NCBI GenBank assembly: GCA_022822005.1
Contig: JAJECO010000044.1
Span: 62,001-126,000 of the forward strand
Direction of reading: 5' to 3'
DNA from: Candidatus Poribacteria bacterium
Lineage (GTDB): Bacteria > Poribacteria > WGA-4E > PCPOR2b
DNA: 64,000 nt
Shown here one piece after another: positions 46,632 to 55,693 of the stretch. Position 1 is the first letter of the stretch, and each line of letters begins with the position of its first letter. Under the pieces are notes generated by a model, which made no database searches, was not told the origin of the DNA, and worked only from the letters and a program-made list of their open reading frames with translations. The position numbers were made by a program, and so were the translations under genes.

Positions 46632-46730
46632 ATGTCGTGGAAACAGATTCTTTTGGTTGTCGTCATAGCGGCTGTGGTTTCTTTCCTCACAGCCGTAGCC
46701 GTTACATTTTTGATGTGGTATTCGATGTGA
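46632..46730 (+). CDS. Very small hydrophobic protein or leader peptide
   Basis: A 32-codon ORF, mostly hydrophobic (ILLVVVIAAVVSFLTAV, AVTFLMWYSM), with GAAGGTG 6 to 8 nt upstream. An in-frame ATG at 46587 would add 15 charged residues. It could be a single-span membrane microprotein. The next transcribed element is a terminator hairpin at 46799-46835 whose 5' arm CATCGAA could pair with TTCGATG at the end of this ORF, so a leader-peptide role is also conceivable. Confidence 0.4.
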   Translation: MSWKQILLVVVIAAVVSFLTAVAVTFLMWYSM

Positions 46731-46798
46731 AGGTGGGCGGGTAAGGACTCGTACGGAAGTGGTAGAGGTTTTTCCGTATTAGATTGTCCATTGCCGTC

Positions 46799-46835
46799 CG
46801 TCATCGAAAATAGATTCGATGGCGAGTCTTTTTTT
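46799..46835 (+). terminator. Intrinsic terminator upstream of the ureidoglycolate lyase gene
   Basis: A 10 bp stem (CGTCATCGAA with TTCGATGGCG, one G-U pair, 6 nt loop) followed after 4 nt by seven T. The lyase ribosome site AGGAGG begins only a few bases further on, so this is an attenuator-type placement or the end of the upstream transcript. Confidence 0.6.
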
Positions 46836-46851
46836 GAGGAGGATTAGAACC

Positions 46852-47373
46852 ATGTGGAAAAGTTTCAAAGTCAAAGTTGAACCTTTGATCCCCGAAACAT
46901 TCGCGCCATTCGGGGAGGTCATCGAAACGTTCGAGGAAGCCGAACCGGAGATAGCGAAGGGTGGGCTGAGATCGGCTGCATATCCCGTAACTGCGGATCT
47001 CTCTGAGGCATCAGCGAACGCCGAACTTGAAAAAACACCGCTCTCCGAAGGGCAACAGCGCGCCCACTTCGCCTTTCACACCGATGCGGGTCAGGCGTTC
47101 TATCCGAGCCTGCACCAGCCAACCGTGTTTCTGGTCGGTCCAATCAAGGACACCTTAGAGCCTGAAGATGTGCGCGCCTTCTATTCGGACGGGAGCACAG
47201 GCGTCTGTTTGGGGCTCAAGGTGTGGCATACCATGCCCATCTGCGTGGAAGGGGACGATGTCTACCAAACGGTTCGTGGGGACCAGGACTATCATGCCCA
47301 CTCGGTTGAAGTCGATTTTGATCTGGAGCAGGGACTGGCTATCGAACCGGATTTGGAGAACTATACCCCGTAG
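46852..47373 (+). CDS. Ureidoglycolate lyase (AllA-like)
   Basis: A 173-residue ureidoglycolate lyase/hydrolase-family protein. The cupin-like sequence has an AFHTDAGQAFYPSLHQP block, FLVGPI, VCLGLKVWHTMPI and HSVEVDFDL, the typical AllA order. AllA converts ureidoglycolate to glyoxylate and urea in purine/allantoin degradation. ATG 46852 is preferred: it has AGGAGG 9 nt upstream, while the upstream frame to 46819 overlaps the terminator. No other allantoin genes are in the window, so a related substrate is possible. Confidence 0.8.
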   Translation: MWKSFKVKVEPLIPETFAPFGEVIETFEEAEPEIAKGGLRSAAYPVTADLSEASANAELEKTPLSEGQQRAHFAFHTDAGQAFYPSLHQPTVFLVGPIKDTLEPEDVRAFYSDGSTGVCLGLKVWHTMPICVEGDDVYQTVRGDQDYHAHSVEVDFDLEQGLAIEPDLENYTP

Positions 47374-49669: not shown

Positions 49670-51085
49670 TTACCACGTCTCCGGTTTGACCGCGCACGGC
49701 GCGATAATCGAATCGACCATTCCGTGCAGCACTTTCTTGTCTTCGGGGCAGACGGTCGCTTGAATCCCAGCGAGGCGGACCTTGTCACCGGTTGTGAAGT
49801 AGTAGGGACGAAGCAGTGCCCGCCCCGGCATCCTTTGAACTTCACCCTGTTCGAAATCGTAGTAGGTCATGGTGAGCCGTTCTGCTCGGTGGAACTTCTG
49901 CAGGACGTAGGGGGTTTGACCAAAACTGGTCAGGGCGTTCTCCACTGCGTCTTCCCAATCCTCGGTGGGAAGGTCATGTCCGATTGCGACCCCACGACTG
50001 CCCCACGCCAATTCGGAGAAGCCTGAGGGCTTGAGGACAAGCTCGCGTTGACGTTGTGAGACAGGGACGATCTGCCGCCAGTTTGTGACAGGCAGTCCAT
50101 CGATCTCAAGATCCGGAATGACGGCGTGCGGTGGTAATTCACGCGAATCGAGTAGCCATGTCTGTGGGATGACGTCTGGTAGGAATTGGTAGGTTTTCTT
50201 CCCAAGTTCTCTTTGCCAGAAGGGTTGGAGCGATGGGTGATGAAACAGGGCGAACATCAGTTTTTCCTCAAGGTATGTCTTGGGTGGCGGGGTCATCACC
50301 ACTGTTCGCCTTTTAGCACCGTAGAGCATCAGATCCACTTTGGGGATGTTTTTCAGATCAAACAGTTCAAAGAAACGGTAGAGGACATCGATCTGGATTT
50401 TTCCTTCTTCCGATTCAAGGAACAGCGCATCTTCGGTGAAGACTACGTCGCGGGGTTTAATGGTGTAGGTGCTCAAGCCTACCTCCCGCAGCGCGGATTC
50501 TAACCATTTCATCTCGTCCCAATAATCCGCAGATTCATCGGAAACAACGATTGCCACCGTTGGGTGTTCAACCTTTGCGATCGACCTGACCATCTCCGCA
50601 AAAGCGAGTTGCATCCCGTTGCTGCCGCCAATGAGATCGTAGTCCAGTTTGGCGTATTGGGCGGATAGACTACCTGTGAACCCCATACCGCCGGGAACGG
50701 AATCCAATTCGGTGATGGCAAACCCTTCGGGGGTCGGTAGGATGTCGGGACGAATAACCTGCGGCAGCTGACTCTTGAACCGATTCATCCGTCCGAGTTC
50801 CACCACAGACTCAGGTTTCCCCTGATCGAGGTATGCTGCAACCCAATCCGGCTGAATACCACGGACACTCTGCGAATAGAGTAGATTGCAGGCTTTGTAG
50901 AACTGCAACAAATGCGGTCCAAGCTCCTCAAGCCAATCCAAGTGTTCTTGAAGAATCCAAAACGGCTCCGGCGAAAGCCGCCAGGTTACGTTGCTATCGG
51001 GGTGAACTGTCTTCTTTTCACCGGCGAAGAGGCCCCCTTTGGGGATCTGACTGTTAATAAATAGGCACTTCTCTTCAGCGTTCAA
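49670..51085 (-). CDS. ATP-grasp-like protein, function unknown
   Basis: A 471-residue protein with a region like the ATP-grasp core: RELVLKPSGFSELAWGSRGVAIG, split as RELVLKPSG and SELAWGSRG, followed by YVLQKFHRAERLT. An acidic segment (ITELDSVPGG) and a Rossmann-like domain (VAIVVSDESADYW) precede it. The order resembles glutathionylspermidine-synthase-like ATP-grasp ligases, which join carboxylates and amines. A ligase is likely; substrates are unknown. It is divergent from the DUF4160 gene, and upstream lies a promoter-rich 196 bp interval. Confidence 0.5.
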   Translation of the reverse strand: MNAEEKCLFINSQIPKGGLFAGEKKTVHPDSNVTWRLSPEPFWILQEHLDWLEELGPHLLQFYKACNLLYSQSVRGIQPDWVAAYLDQGKPESVVELGRMNRFKSQLPQVIRPDILPTPEGFAITELDSVPGGMGFTGSLSAQYAKLDYDLIGGSNGMQLAFAEMVRSIAKVEHPTVAIVVSDESADYWDEMKWLESALREVGLSTYTIKPRDVVFTEDALFLESEEGKIQIDVLYRFFELFDLKNIPKVDLMLYGAKRRTVVMTPPPKTYLEEKLMFALFHHPSLQPFWQRELGKKTYQFLPDVIPQTWLLDSRELPPHAVIPDLEIDGLPVTNWRQIVPVSQRQRELVLKPSGFSELAWGSRGVAIGHDLPTEDWEDAVENALTSFGQTPYVLQKFHRAERLTMTYYDFEQGEVQRMPGRALLRPYYFTTGDKVRLAGIQATVCPEDKKVLHGMVDSIIAPCAVKPETW

Positions 51086-51218
51086 ACGACTGCTCCTTTG
51101 TCAGGATTGACGGATGCTCCAGGCACCTTAATCCTCAAATCCCGATTGAATCTGTCTCATTGACGTTCCAAAATATAACTATAACACCCCAAAAAGGGGT
51201 TGTCAACGAAAATTGCCC

Positions 51219-51248
51219 TTGACATCTTGTGCACAGGTTTGTTAAGAT
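51219..51248 (+). promoter_or_regulatory. Predicted promoter for the DUF4160/DUF2442 pair
   Basis: TTGACA at 51219-51224 and TAAGAT at 51243-51248 with 18 bp spacing, 33 bp before the ATG at 51282. An inverted repeat TGTCAA (51201-51206) with TTGACA overlaps the -35 box and could be an operator. Confidence 0.5.
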
Positions 51249-51281
51249 ATGAATGTTTGTTTTTAGACGAGGCTTTGAACG

Positions 51282-51518
51282 ATGCCAACTGTTCTAAGAG
51301 CCGGCCCGTATCGCATATACTTCTGGAGTCATGAACCTGACGAACCACCACATGTTCATGTTGATCGTGATGCCAATTCAGCCAAGTTTTGGCTTGGACC
51401 TGTTCGTTTCGCCCGCAATCTTAGTTTCAGCTCAGTAGAGCTTCGCAGAATAGAGCGGATAGTAGCTGAACATGAACCAGAACTTTTAGAGGCGTGGCAT
51501 GACTACTTCGGACGTTAA
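51282..51518 (+). CDS. DUF4160 family protein
   Basis: A 78-residue protein with the DUF4160 signature: GPYRIYFWSHEPDEPPHVHV and AKFWL near residue 35, followed by a helical end (RIERIVAEHEPELLEAWHDYF). The His residues in PPHVHV are conserved in the family. Function is not established. Its coding end overlaps the start of the DUF2442 gene by 20 bp, the usual pairing of these two families, which has been suggested to act as a toxin-antitoxin-like unit. Confidence 0.85.
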   Translation: MPTVLRAGPYRIYFWSHEPDEPPHVHVDRDANSAKFWLGPVRFARNLSFSSVELRRIERIVAEHEPELLEAWHDYFGR

Positions 51519-51783
51519 ACCAGGTGAAGGTGTCAAAGATGTACATGTCACTGAAGACACCTTGAGCGTTGACCTCATTGATGGACGTACTATTATCGTG
51601 CCGTTGGTATGGTATCCCAAACTCCTTCATGCAACGCCGGGGCAACGGGCAAATTGGCAGATATGCGGTGGTGGCTATGGGATTCATTGGCCAGATATTG
51701 ATGAAGATTTAAGCACGGAAGGTTTACTAAAAGGTGCTCCTGCACCGCGCGGTATCGCGCCAATAAATCAGGCGGCTGACTAA
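51499..51783 (+). CDS. DUF2442 family protein
   Basis: A 94-residue protein with the DUF2442 pattern: VHVTEDTLSVDLIDGRTIIVPLVWYPKLL and WQICGGGYGIHWPDIDEDLS (quoted in parts: DLIDGRTIIVPL, YGIHWPDIDEDLS). It partners the overlapping DUF4160 gene and is translated from a start inside it. Family function unknown; DUF2442 may bind the partner or nucleic acid. The Ala-Pro-rich C-terminal tail is variable in the family. Confidence 0.8.
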   Translation: MTTSDVKPGEGVKDVHVTEDTLSVDLIDGRTIIVPLVWYPKLLHATPGQRANWQICGGGYGIHWPDIDEDLSTEGLLKGAPAPRGIAPINQAAD

Positions 51784-51868
51784 TGTGACAGATGTTTTAA
51801 TGAAATCATACTCCAATCAGGTCAAGTGACTGGATACTTGGCTATTGATACACCTAAAAGAAATAACC

Positions 51869-51994
51869 ATGAAGAGCGTCTACCTACAGCCTTACATCGC
51901 AAATCAGACAACGCTGTACTTCTTTTATCTCTATCTCTTTTTGTTGTATTTGCGCTGCGATGGTGGGCGGGTAGACCCTGCATCGAAGATGTAG
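51869..51994 (+). CDS. Tyr/Phe-rich attenuator leader peptide
   Basis: A 41-codon ORF ahead of the DAHP synthase gene. It has six Tyr and three Phe codons; seven of the twelve codons 17-28 are Tyr or Phe (YFFYLYLFLLYL). The terminator hairpin lies 29 nt after its stop, and a sequence near its end (51958-51969) can pair with the terminator's 5' arm. Tyr and Phe are end products of the pathway that DAHP synthase starts, so the peptide fits a sensor of charged tRNA-Tyr and tRNA-Phe. No clear ribosome site precedes the ATG (AAAAG at 51856-51860 is the best candidate), which is the main weakness. Confidence 0.75.
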   Translation: MKSVYLQPYIANQTTLYFFYLYLFLLYLRCDGGRVDPASKM

Positions 51995-52065
51995 AGATTA
52001 TCCCACATTCGGTTATTCATTCACGCCCATCATCGAAAACAGGTTCGATGGTGGGCGTTTTTTTT
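51880..52065 (+). promoter_or_regulatory. Transcription attenuator of the DAHP synthase gene
   Basis: Four pairing segments in the trp-attenuator order. Segment 1: TCTACC (51879-51884) and CATCGC (51895-51900). Segment 2: GCGATG...GGTAGA (51957-51975), which contains CGATGGTGGGCG (51958-51969). Segment 3: CGCCCATCATCG (52024-52035). Segment 4: CGATGGTGGGCG (52046-52057) plus T tract. Segments 2 and 4 are identical over 12 bases, so segment 3 can pair with either, giving antiterminator or terminator. Segments 1 and 2 can pair as a protector. Confidence 0.75.
52023..52065 (+). terminator. Intrinsic terminator in the DAHP synthase leader
   Basis: A 15 bp stem (52023-52037 with 52044-52058, one G-U pair, 6 nt loop) followed by eight consecutive T at 52058-52065. 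It lies 24 bp before the ATG of the DAHP synthase gene, so it must be bypassed for expression. Confidence 0.9.
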
Positions 52066-52088
52066 GTCTATAGGAGGCAAGCTAAATA

Positions 52089-53153
52089 ATGCAGACTAAC
52101 GGTACGATTGACAGAAATGTCAAAGACTATCAGACCTTGATGAGTCCAAGGCAGTTGTTGACGGACCTTCCAAGAACAGATGCGATGACGCAGACGGTCC
52201 AACACGGCAGAGCAGCGGTTAGGAATATCTTGGACGGCACCGATTCACGGAAATTTGTCATTGTTGGACCCTGTTCCATCCATGACGCAGAGCTCGCCCA
52301 CGACTATGCGGCAAAATTGAAAGAGGTTTCAGACGCTGTTTCAGACCGCTTGGTTATTGTAGTCAGATCTTATTTTGAGAAACCGCGCACCAGTTTGGGT
52401 TGGAAAGGCTTAATCTACGACTCACATCTAAATGGAGCAGGGGACATCAAGGATGGCTTATATATCTGCAGAAGGATATTAATGGATAATCTTGAGATCG
52501 GATTGCCGTGCGCCACTGAGTATCTTGAAACCTTCACGCCGCAATATAACTCCGATCTGGTCTCTTGGGCAGCGATCGGTGCGCGGACGACTGAGTCGCC
52601 ACAACACAGACAACTCGCTTCGGGGTTATCAATGCCGGTTGGCTTCAAAAACAGCACTCAAGGCGATATCTCCGTTGCGGTCAATGCGATTCTATCCTCG
52701 AACGGCGAACACTCTTTTCTGGGGATTGATGGATACGGCGCTCCCTCCGTTGTGCGAACAACGGGCAATCCATACACCCATATCGTGATGAGGGGAAGCA
52801 ATACGGGCGCAAACTATGATTCACAAAGTGTCCAAGATGTCCAAGCGATGCTGACGGAGGAGGACCTGCCTCCGAACGTCGTTATAGATTGCAGCCACGG
52901 GAATTCGGAGAAAGATTACAGCAAGCAACCCATCGTTTTTGAGGAGATATTGAAACAGATTCGTGATGGGAATGATGGGATCGTGGGAATCATGCTGGAA
53001 TCAAATATTAACGCTGGGAGCCAGAAAATACCTTCTGACCTAACCGGGTTTGATAAGTCCACACTTGAGTACGGCGTTTCCGTCACTGACAGTTGTATTG
53101 ATTGGGAGACAACTGCTTCGCTGCTTAAGGAGGCGCATAAAAACCTCGCTTAG
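52089..53153 (+). CDS. aroF: 3-deoxy-D-arabino-heptulosonate-7-phosphate synthase, class I
   Basis: A 354-residue DAHP synthase of the AroF/AroG/AroH class (E. coli AroG 350). It condenses phosphoenolpyruvate and erythrose-4-phosphate, the first step of the shikimate pathway, in the cytoplasm. Motifs: GPCSIHD (Cys62 metal ligand), KPRTSLGWKGL, MRGSNTGANYD, DCSHGNS (His ligand), LESN with the metal Glu, and VTDSCIDWETT with the Asp ligand. Paralog type (Tyr-, Phe- or Trp-sensitive) cannot be assigned; the symbol is a class label. AGGAGG lies 11 nt before the ATG. An attenuator upstream points to regulation by Tyr/Phe. Confidence 0.93.
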   Translation: MQTNGTIDRNVKDYQTLMSPRQLLTDLPRTDAMTQTVQHGRAAVRNILDGTDSRKFVIVGPCSIHDAELAHDYAAKLKEVSDAVSDRLVIVVRSYFEKPRTSLGWKGLIYDSHLNGAGDIKDGLYICRRILMDNLEIGLPCATEYLETFTPQYNSDLVSWAAIGARTTESPQHRQLASGLSMPVGFKNSTQGDISVAVNAILSSNGEHSFLGIDGYGAPSVVRTTGNPYTHIVMRGSNTGANYDSQSVQDVQAMLTEEDLPPNVVIDCSHGNSEKDYSKQPIVFEEILKQIRDGNDGIVGIMLESNINAGSQKIPSDLTGFDKSTLEYGVSVTDSCIDWETTASLLKEAHKNLA

Positions 53154-53196
53154 GCGATTTGAAAGGCCATTCAAAAGGGGTACGGAGAATCTTCCT

Positions 53197-53946
53197 ATGG
53201 CATGGTACAAAACCTTCTATGATGAACATTACCTTAAGGAATATGCGAGTGGATTTACGCCTGAACGAGCCCAGAGAGAAGTGGGCTTCGTCAACAGGAC
53301 GCTGAATCTTCCCGAAGGTGCGCGGATCTTGGATCTTTGCTGCGGGCATGGAAGGCACACGGTTGAACTCGCAGCAGCGGGCTATTCGATGGTTGGACAG
53401 GATCTGTCAGCCACCTTCCTCGATCTTGCGAAAGATGCCGCTGCAGCGCGCGATCTTCAGATTCAGTTCGTCCGTGCCGATATGCGGGAGATTCCGTTTG
53501 AAGCTGAGTTTGATGCGGTCATCAATATGTTCACAGCTTTCGGCTACTTTGACGATGCGGAGAACCAGAAAGTCCTCAACGCCGTTGCGCGGGCGTTAAA
53601 GCCGGGGGGGAAGCTCCTCATTGACCTCCTCAACACCCTGCGGATCATCCGTGATTTTCTGCCTCAAAGTTGGGACGAACTCCCAGATGGGACGGCTACC
53701 CTTACTAAGCGAGATTATAATCTCCTGACAGGGAACATAGAAGAGTTTCGCACCTACATTGCTCCTGACGGGAGTAAGCGTGAAATTCACTTGGTCTGGC
53801 GATCGTATTTCTATACTGAGCTTGCAAAGATGCTTAACCGTGCAAGCCTTGCGCCGATTCAAGTGTTCGGTGGTTTTGATAGTAGTGAGTTCACGTGGGA
53901 CTCAAATCGGATGATTGTCTTGGCTGAAAAGCAGCGCGAAGCATAA
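53197..53946 (+). CDS. SAM-dependent methyltransferase
   Basis: A 249-residue class I methyltransferase. Motif I is LDLCCGHGRH (residues about 48-57), motif II VGQDLSATFLDLA with an acidic Asp, and RADMREIPF and VARALKPGGKLLIDLL as later motifs. The start at 53197 has GGAG upstream; a longer frame to 53050 overlaps DAHP synthase and is less likely. It begins 43 bp after the DAHP synthase stop and is probably in the same transcript. Substrate unknown. Confidence 0.85.
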   Translation: MAWYKTFYDEHYLKEYASGFTPERAQREVGFVNRTLNLPEGARILDLCCGHGRHTVELAAAGYSMVGQDLSATFLDLAKDAAAARDLQIQFVRADMREIPFEAEFDAVINMFTAFGYFDDAENQKVLNAVARALKPGGKLLIDLLNTLRIIRDFLPQSWDELPDGTATLTKRDYNLLTGNIEEFRTYIAPDGSKREIHLVWRSYFYTELAKMLNRASLAPIQVFGGFDSSEFTWDSNRMIVLAEKQREA

Positions 53947-54157
53947 GTACACCTAAAAGGAGCGGATCAGAGAGTTAAACGAAAATCCTCTATCACGTTT
54001 TACGTTTCACGCATCACGACACGCATCACGAAAGGAGGTGATGAAGGTGGGGTTGACGGCTACCGACGAACCGGATTTACGTGATACTGGAAACAATCTT
54101 ACATCGTTAGAGCAACAGAGTGAAGAGAGTACAATTACAAAAAAGGAGAATCACACT

Positions 54158-55693
54158 GTGTCTGAGAAAGTTTATATTTTTGATACAACCCTGCGAGATG
54201 CCGAGCAAACACCCGGTGCTGCGCTGAATCTTGAGGAAAAGCTGGAAATCGCGAAGCACCTCGCAAAACTGAAAGTCGATATTATCGAAGCCGGTTTCCC
54301 CGTCTCATCGCCCGGCGATTTCGATGCCGTAACGCGCATCTCTAATGAAGTAGAGGGTCCGGAAATTTGTGCACTTTCGCGCGTGGTTGAGAAGGATATC
54401 ACCGCGGCATGGGGAGCAATTAAGGACGCACAAAGGCCTCGTATTCACACGTTTGTCGGCACATCACCTATTCACCGGGAACGTATCACGCGGACATCGC
54501 CCGAAGAGACGCTGAAGATGGCGGTCGATGCGGTCGCCTACGCGAAAGAACTATCCGCTGGACACCCCGATGCAGCTATCGAATTTTCACCGATGGACGC
54601 CGGACGCACGGAGCCAAACTATCTTTATGAGGTGGTCGAGGCGACGATCGCAGCGGGAGCGACGATTGTCAACATCCCCGAAACGGTGGGCTGGACTGTA
54701 CCCGCTGAATTCGGGAAACTGATCGCAGATATCAAAGCGAATGTCCCAAACATTGGTCAAGCGATCATCAGTGTCCACTGCCATAACGACCTTGGATTCG
54801 CTGTTGCGAACAGTCTCGAAGCGATCGAAAACGGGGCAAGACAGATCGAATGCACAATCAATGGACTCGGTGAACGCGCTGGCAATACCTCGCTTGAAGA
54901 GGTCGTAATGGCCATCCAGACCCGTCGGGACTATTACAGCGACTACTATACCGACATCAATACGAAAGAAATCGTTCCGATTAGCCGTCGCGTCAGTCGG
55001 ACAATGGGAATACCCGTTCAACCGAACAAAGCAATCGTTGGTGAGAATGCTTTTGCACACAGTTCTGGCATCCATCAAGACGGTGTTATCAAGCAGCGAA
55101 ACACCTTTGAGATTATCGATCCGGCAGATGTCGGTTGGCAAGAGAGCCAGATTATCCTCAGTCCGCGGTCCGGACGTAACGCCCTCCGGCACCGCCTGGG
55201 TGCACTCGGCTATGAGGTGACTCAAGAGCAGCTCGAAAAGATTTACGAGCGATTCCTCAGTGTCGCCGATAAGAAGAAAGAGGTTCATGATGCCGACCTC
55301 GAAGCGATCATGAGAGACGAGGTCCGCTCGATCCCCGAAACCTTCCAATTGGAGTACATTCAGGTGGTCAGCGGAACGAGAATATCTTCGACAACGACCG
55401 TGGGTGTCCGTACCGAAACAGGCATCGTTGAAGAAGCATCCACCGGCGATGGACCTGTTGATGCAGCCTACAAAGCAATTGACCGGGTCGCCAAGATCCC
55501 TCTCTTGCTCACGGATTACAACATCAGGGCTGTAACCGAGGGGAGGGATGCCATCGGTGAGGTTACAATCAGGGTGCAGGACAACGGGCATGTGATTAAT
55601 GGGAATGGTGCAAGCACAGATATTATTGAAGCGAGCGCGAAAGCCTACATCGATGCCATTAACAAGGTTGTCCACCTGCGCTATGAAGAGTAG
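54158..55693 (+). CDS. leuA: 2-isopropylmalate synthase
   Basis: A 511-residue enzyme condensing acetyl-CoA and 2-oxoisovalerate, the first step of leucine biosynthesis. Catalytic motif [12 protein letters not shown] near the N-terminus (Gly replaced by Ala in the usual DGEQ), metal His motifs in [13 protein letters not shown], and the [11 protein letters not shown] block. [16 protein letters not shown] opens the C-terminal region with the regulatory domain ([20 protein letters not shown]). GTG 54158 (AAAAAAGGAG upstream) fits the E. coli length; an upstream GTG at 54038, behind AAAGGAGG, would add 40 residues not typical of the family. Confidence 0.93.

Follow-up and report, generated by a model that had tools for sequence, protein, structure and literature searches.

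The question raised by this locus is how a DAHP synthase gene is controlled when a short open reading frame (ORF) rich in Tyr and Phe codons and an intrinsic terminator lie directly ahead of it. The locus was studied in a 64-kb window, i.e., the whole stretch of DNA that was analysed, and in related genomes. An earlier note on this DNA had claimed a trp-like attenuator plan with Tyr and Phe as the signals, and the comparative evidence supported it. With a probability of about 0.9, judged from sequence comparison and folding, the DAHP synthase gene would be controlled by a ribosome-mediated transcription attenuator of the trp/his/phe type. The features are collected in Table 1.

Table 1. Positions of the attenuator features, the regulated gene and a second element within the window.
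Feature	Position	Strand	Basis
Leader ORF, putative sensor, 41 codons	51869..51994	+	Open frame, translation
Regulatory codon run, codons 17-27 (Tyr, Phe, Phe, Tyr, Leu, Tyr, Leu, Phe, Leu, Leu, Tyr)	51917..51949	+	Reading frame
Segment 1, protector, partner of segment 2	51877..51902	+	Duplex energy; G002 pairs there with different bases
Segment 2, antiterminator strand, within the leader ORF, 12 bases identical to segment 4	51958..51969	+	Exact repeat; covariation with segment 3
Segment 3, shared strand, i.e., terminator 5' arm and antiterminator 3' arm	52023..52037	+	Folding, covariation
Segment 4, terminator 3' arm	52044..52058	+	Folding, covariation
Terminator U-tract, eight T	52058..52065	+	Sequence
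Small hairpin containing most of the leader stop codon	51979..51993	+	Fold; kept in G000-G003 and G005, not in G006
Shine-Dalgarno AGGAGG of the DAHP synthase gene	52072..52077	+	Sequence
DAHP synthase, type I-alpha (aroFGH), regulated gene	52089..53153	+	TIGR00034 and PRK12755 above cut-off
Second, weaker scaffold match before a ureidoglycolate-lyase-like gene (46852-47373)	46707..46836	+	45.7 bits

The leader ORF (51869-51994) translates as MKSVYLQPYIANQTTLYFFYLYLFLLYLRCDGGRVDPASKM, followed by the stop. Seven of the twelve codons 17-28 are Tyr or Phe codons, i.e., Y17, F18, F19, Y20, Y22, F24, and Y27. Leu codons are frequent in the run too, which counts against the attenuator reading. The 12-mer CGATGGTGGGCG has exactly two copies in the 64-kb window, one in the ORF (51958-51969) and one in the terminator 3' arm (52046-52057). 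The intrinsic terminator is a 15-pair stem (52023-52058) placed between the leader ORF and the gene, and 23 nt separate its T run from the ATG at 52089. The coordinates given before for the leader ORF, the Tyr/Phe run, the terminator, and the 12-base copies were all correct. The two weak points named in the earlier note, a poor leader ribosome site and a stop past segment 2, were real as well. No good Shine-Dalgarno and no clear promoter were seen in the window sequence upstream of the leader start at 51869, and the leader stop lies downstream of segment 2, with 22 nt in between. The locus combines the traits of an attenuator, i.e., a cognate codon run, an intrinsic terminator, an antiterminator that shares a strand with it, and a protector stem. 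The regulated gene encodes the only DAHP synthase found in the window's Poribacteria genome (G000, 97.8% complete), which gave one PF00793 match and no PF01474 match.

The proposed mechanism follows the trp plan. When Tyr- and Phe-tRNA are charged, the ribosome would traverse the codon run and pass over segment 2. Segment 2 would then be covered or paired again with segment 1, the 3:4 stem would form, and transcription would end at 52065. When Tyr or Phe is scarce, the ribosome would stall in the run (51917-51949), which is located in the loop of the 1:2 protector stem, and this stem could not close. The emerging segments 2 and 3 would then pair, no terminator would form, and DAHP synthase would be made.

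The RNA folding that had been suggested as a check was consistent with this plan. The 202-nt leader gave z = -5.0 against shuffles. Pairing of segment 2 with segment 3 reached -24.2 kcal/mol, a strength that was not reached in any of 20,000 dinucleotide shuffles of the sequence 5' of the terminator. The upstream protector claimed earlier was recovered as a duplex of 51877-51902 with segment 2 (-31.6 kcal/mol, p = 0.0005). The same 1:2 stem had p values of 0.004 in G002 and 0.05 in G001, and was not significant in G006.

The ribosome was also placed on given leader codons, and the masked leader was folded with segment 3 just out or with segment 4 out. In the state where segment 3 had just appeared, the predicted antiterminator probability was 0.75-1.0 for a ribosome at codons 12-20, and the protector and the antiterminator were about equal when the ribosome was absent. 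For a ribosome on codons 29-38, the predicted probability was about 0. With segment 4 exposed, full equilibrium favoured the terminator for almost every stall position within the Tyr/Phe run. Therefore, antitermination would have to rely on kinetic trapping, as it does in trp. A ribosome stalled at codons 22-23 favoured the protector, which is an unexplained weak spot of the simple mask model, and the antiterminator preference predicted for a ribosome at codons 40-41 is likewise unexplained by it.

Homologous leaders were compared as the earlier note had proposed, and the leader ORF was found to be retained in the relatives together with its Tyr/Phe run and the two pairings. The leader, codon run, segments 2-4, and U-tract were retained in G000-G003 and also in G006, a member of another genus with diverged flanks. 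In the G006 comparison, 26 of 52 positions between the segments were identical, versus 11/13, 14/15, and 13/15 in segments 2, 3, and 4. The ORF was open and conserved in all of these genomes, and indels inside it were multiples of three. This in-frame conservation stands alongside the weak Shine-Dalgarno. The peptide motif FLLYL was conserved between the genera of family f1. Both weak points are milder among the relatives: the G002 leader has AAGAGGATTATG, which bears on the weak Shine-Dalgarno, and most f3 family leaders have a stop codon that forms the final triplet of segment 2. In G005 (G005:C54, L003), a 30-nt in-frame deletion removed segment 2, and the leader run and terminator remain. 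This genome also has a second DAHP synthase, of type I-beta, without a leader. The loss of segment 2 beside a leaderless second enzyme makes a natural prediction that the G005 leader would be uninducible.

A covariation test within the nearest relatives alone was uninformative, i.e., the window's genus and G006 showed one-sided changes only, hence the wider family was used, and from it the two-sided changes stem. A MAFFT alignment of 37 leaders (A7) was compared with 500 shuffles, with slid registers as the control. The terminator helix showed two-sided changes in 9 of 15 pairs with 90% paired, and the antiterminator helix in 9 of 16 pairs with 82% paired; the sequences were found via their similarity to segments 2-4 and are mutually related, and most of the two-sided change divides two large groups. 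None of the 500 shuffles was as good for either helix, whether by cells paired, two-sided cells, or covariation score, and slid registers scored far lower in both. Positions 51968, 52025, and 52056 changed together across the three segments, being C/G/C in 21 sequences and U/A/U in 15. The compensatory changes that had been proposed as a check are therefore present in both helices, 2:3 and 3:4.

The wider family was collected with two covariance models, neither of which contains the antiterminator pairing. R1 was made from five window-type (type I-alpha) leaders with only the terminator stem imposed. Its matches spread across the phylum. The 20 that were read showed leaders, nearly all of them rich in Tyr/Phe, before a DAHP synthase of another type, I-beta; one example ends in YLYLYLYLYGNDRW before its stop. 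R2 was built from 37 sequences. With R2, 57 of the 58 Poribacteria genomes having a PF00793 gene showed the element ahead of DAHP synthase, in the same orientation and 157-459 nt before the start of the PF00793 domain. The sole exception was G004, which is 88% complete. All 23 DAHP synthase leaders examined had Tyr/Phe in the leader frame.

These results bear on one alternative, i.e., a plain intrinsic terminator between genes beside a chance open frame, with no regulation. The terminator is strong on its own, and a few other Poribacteria sites (L240, L241, and L257) have terminators like it but no leader run. However, a plain terminator does not need the covariation of segment 2 with segment 3, nor would it account for the conserved ORF frame, the codon run that suits the gene, or the placement right before DAHP synthase in nearly every genome. 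This explanation is considered very unlikely.

The attenuator element precedes both DAHP synthase types, I-alpha and I-beta. In G008 (G008:C36; L162, L006), the order is leader, type I-beta, and type I-alpha in tandem, a possible intermediate of an enzyme swap. The simplest reading is that type I-alpha was inserted behind an attenuated type I-beta gene, and that type I-beta was later lost in the window's genus. From the tandem in one genome, the attenuator seems to have outlived the enzyme swap.

Outside Poribacteria, 19 of 75 DAHP synthase loci were preceded by an ORF in which ten codons encode six or more aromatic residues. Shuffles gave an expectation of 0.2 such loci, and the reverse strand had none. 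The 19 loci belong to Chloroflexota, Latescibacterota, and one deltaproteobacterial MAG. Most of these leaders have a terminator, and several have a segment-2 candidate right after the run. Inheritance of one leader with DAHP synthase across phyla was rejected, because the DAHP synthase tree requires at least seven gains or losses of the leader, counted on its starred branches, and the Poribacteria model recovered no DAHP synthase leader in Latescibacterota, where it gave weak matches at other genes. The Latescibacterota leaders thus look independent or too diverged to tell. In Chloroflexota (L017-L056, L075, L082, and L087), the Tyr/Phe leader start often lies, by eye, no more than about 10 nt from a sigma-70-like -10 box, an arrangement that would fit translation from leaderless transcripts. 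A similar scaffold with an Asn/Asp codon run, NNNDDNN, was seen at two Latescibacterota loci (L261 in G314 and L260 in G313). The weak match at L261 precedes a non-discriminating aspartate--tRNA(Asn) ligase (by NCBIfam, at L261 only), and its leader has ..NLNANNNDDNN...

The earlier note had described the attenuator at the DAHP synthase gene. The element is not confined to this one gene, as the same scaffold also serves tyrS, ileS, leuS, and citramalate synthase genes (named by NCBIfam) with other codon runs. For each run, the frame used was the one that begins at a start codon and stays open through segment 2. Counting residues in all frames was rejected, since the same ATT run can give Ile, Leu, or Tyr depending on the frame. 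By the open-frame rule, tyrS leaders had a Tyr run, ileS leaders an Ile run (11/11 of the f3 and 4/4 of the f1 members read), leuS leaders a Leu run (all five that were readable), and citramalate synthase leaders an Ile run. The forms of the run include YLYLYLYLY, SIIIIIAI, and LRLLGLLRL. When codon runs were permuted against gene labels over 31 loci, exceptions kept, none of 200,000 permutations was as good; the mechanical frame rule mis-picks some frames, and the 31 loci are not fully independent. The exceptions were the f5 ileS leaders L230 and L239, which are aromatic- and Leu-rich and not Ile-rich, the f4 leaders L231 and L232 without a clear run, and L187 and L188, which have a stop ahead of segment 2. 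The cases before hisS (L233) and argD (L249) are single and weak. At L249 (G008:C692), the scaffold match lies before an argD-type aminotransferase gene, and the leader ends in RVRRSRSG. In the window's own genome, matches were located before DAHP synthase, ileS (C87), and leuS (C85; terminator part only). The window element would belong to a family that spans Poribacteria and keeps the scaffold of segments 2, 3, and 4, with the codon run swapped to suit the gene.

Two peptide-based explanations are affected by this exchange. The leader could be a nascent-chain arrest peptide, in which a ligand, e.g., free tyrosine, and not a lack of charged tRNA, stalls the ribosome. Leaders of such length exist among arrest peptides in general, and FLLYL is kept between the f1 genera, but the varied cognate runs suggest codon reading, and across genes no conserved peptide motif was present. 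Such arrest is regarded as highly improbable. The leader could also be a functional small membrane peptide with the Tyr/Phe/Leu run as a transmembrane helix, since the run is hydrophobic and a leader-like ORF of the second window element (46632-46730) encodes a transmembrane-like peptide, MSWKQILLVVVIAAVVSFLTAVAVTFLMWYSM. However, the peptide varies with the downstream gene (Ile at ileS, Leu at leuS, Tyr at tyrS), its N-terminal half lacks conservation, and in segment 2 it is the RNA that is conserved, so that this role is scarcely believable. The second element (46707-46836) itself has a partly broken terminator stem, and its orthologue in G003 has decayed further; it is probably a degenerate or unrelated member.

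An Rfam scan of the window region and of 36 related leader loci found no family at the gathering score, Phe_leader and Trp_leader included, and the T-box covariance model had no match at 50000-54500. Weak hits to BSnc140 and manA, both on the minus strand, were rejected as chance-level. T-boxes do occur in Poribacteria, one or two per genome, e.g., G000:C22:108041-108301 and G000:C13:59218-59502. Even with T-boxes in these genomes, the chance that the leader is a T-box or metabolite riboswitch reading tRNA or an aromatic compound directly is negligible, as nothing credible was found in the window or, at gathering score, at the related loci, and the conserved feature is a codon run that is putatively translated.

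Beyond the single locus, it is considered likely that Poribacteria run a phylum-wide attenuation regulon from one duplicated scaffold. Its specificity would have been reset by exchange of the codon run (Tyr/Phe, Tyr, Ile, and Leu; possibly Arg; and Asn/Asp before the non-discriminating AspRS in Latescibacterota), as a ribosome-read counterpart of the T-box, and it would have been kept through the swap of DAHP synthase type. To our knowledge, the classical attenuator of each operon has been regarded as an invention of its own. A homologous scaffold whose runs can be exchanged has a big meaning here, as it forms a natural series: the switch stays constant, and its members differ in specificity, reading frame, and stop position. 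Because it is a natural series of one switch, the evolution of attenuator specificity becomes directly testable. A regulatory RNA would persist through replacement of the enzyme gene under its control, and amino-acid attenuation would be extended to an uncultured phylum of sponge-associated bacteria. The family also yields testable amino-acid assignments and a search model.

The earlier note had called control of DAHP synthase in this way undescribed in this lineage. In the literature, which was partially covered, no paper was found on Poribacteria attenuators or on a codon-swapping attenuator family, and a phylum-wide family of this kind appears undescribed. Attenuation of DAHP synthase as such was already known: in Corynebacterium glutamicum, AroR attenuates the aroF DAHP synthase gene (Neshat et al. 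2014, as described in PMC11802643; also PMC4046766), and in Acholeplasma the uORFC-13-1 motif is a predicted uORF with Phe codons and a terminator before aroF (PMC8632094). The mechanism is therefore of a known kind. As far as these accounts of AroR go, it is alike in having a Phe-Tyr-Phe leader peptide before DAHP synthase and stalling-based transcription attenuation, which was studied there experimentally, and it differs in a far shorter aromatic run, another phylum, and a reported response to Phe but not Tyr. It is likened to the window leader by function alone, i.e., as an analogy. The uORFC-13-1 prediction is confined to Acholeplasma and environmental sequences, and its reuse at other genes is not reported (PMC8632094).

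The trp, his, phe, and pheST attenuators of Enterobacteria share the segment plan of 1:2, 2:3, and 3:4 and the pathway-cognate codons. These enterobacterial leaders are not known to be related to one another, whereas Poribacteria reuse one homologous scaffold, and the stop in the window lies past segment 2. In bacilli, the hisS and hisZ genes share a similar His leader (Naville and Gautheret, PMC2965389). Both of those leaders have His codons, whereas the Poribacteria family changes its codon specificity between genes. The T-box (RF00230) is alike in logic, i.e., one scaffold, specificity determined by a codon, and use at both aminoacyl-tRNA synthetase and biosynthesis genes. However, the T-box binds tRNA directly, whereas the Poribacteria element, for which the T-box model gave no match, would be read by a translating ribosome.
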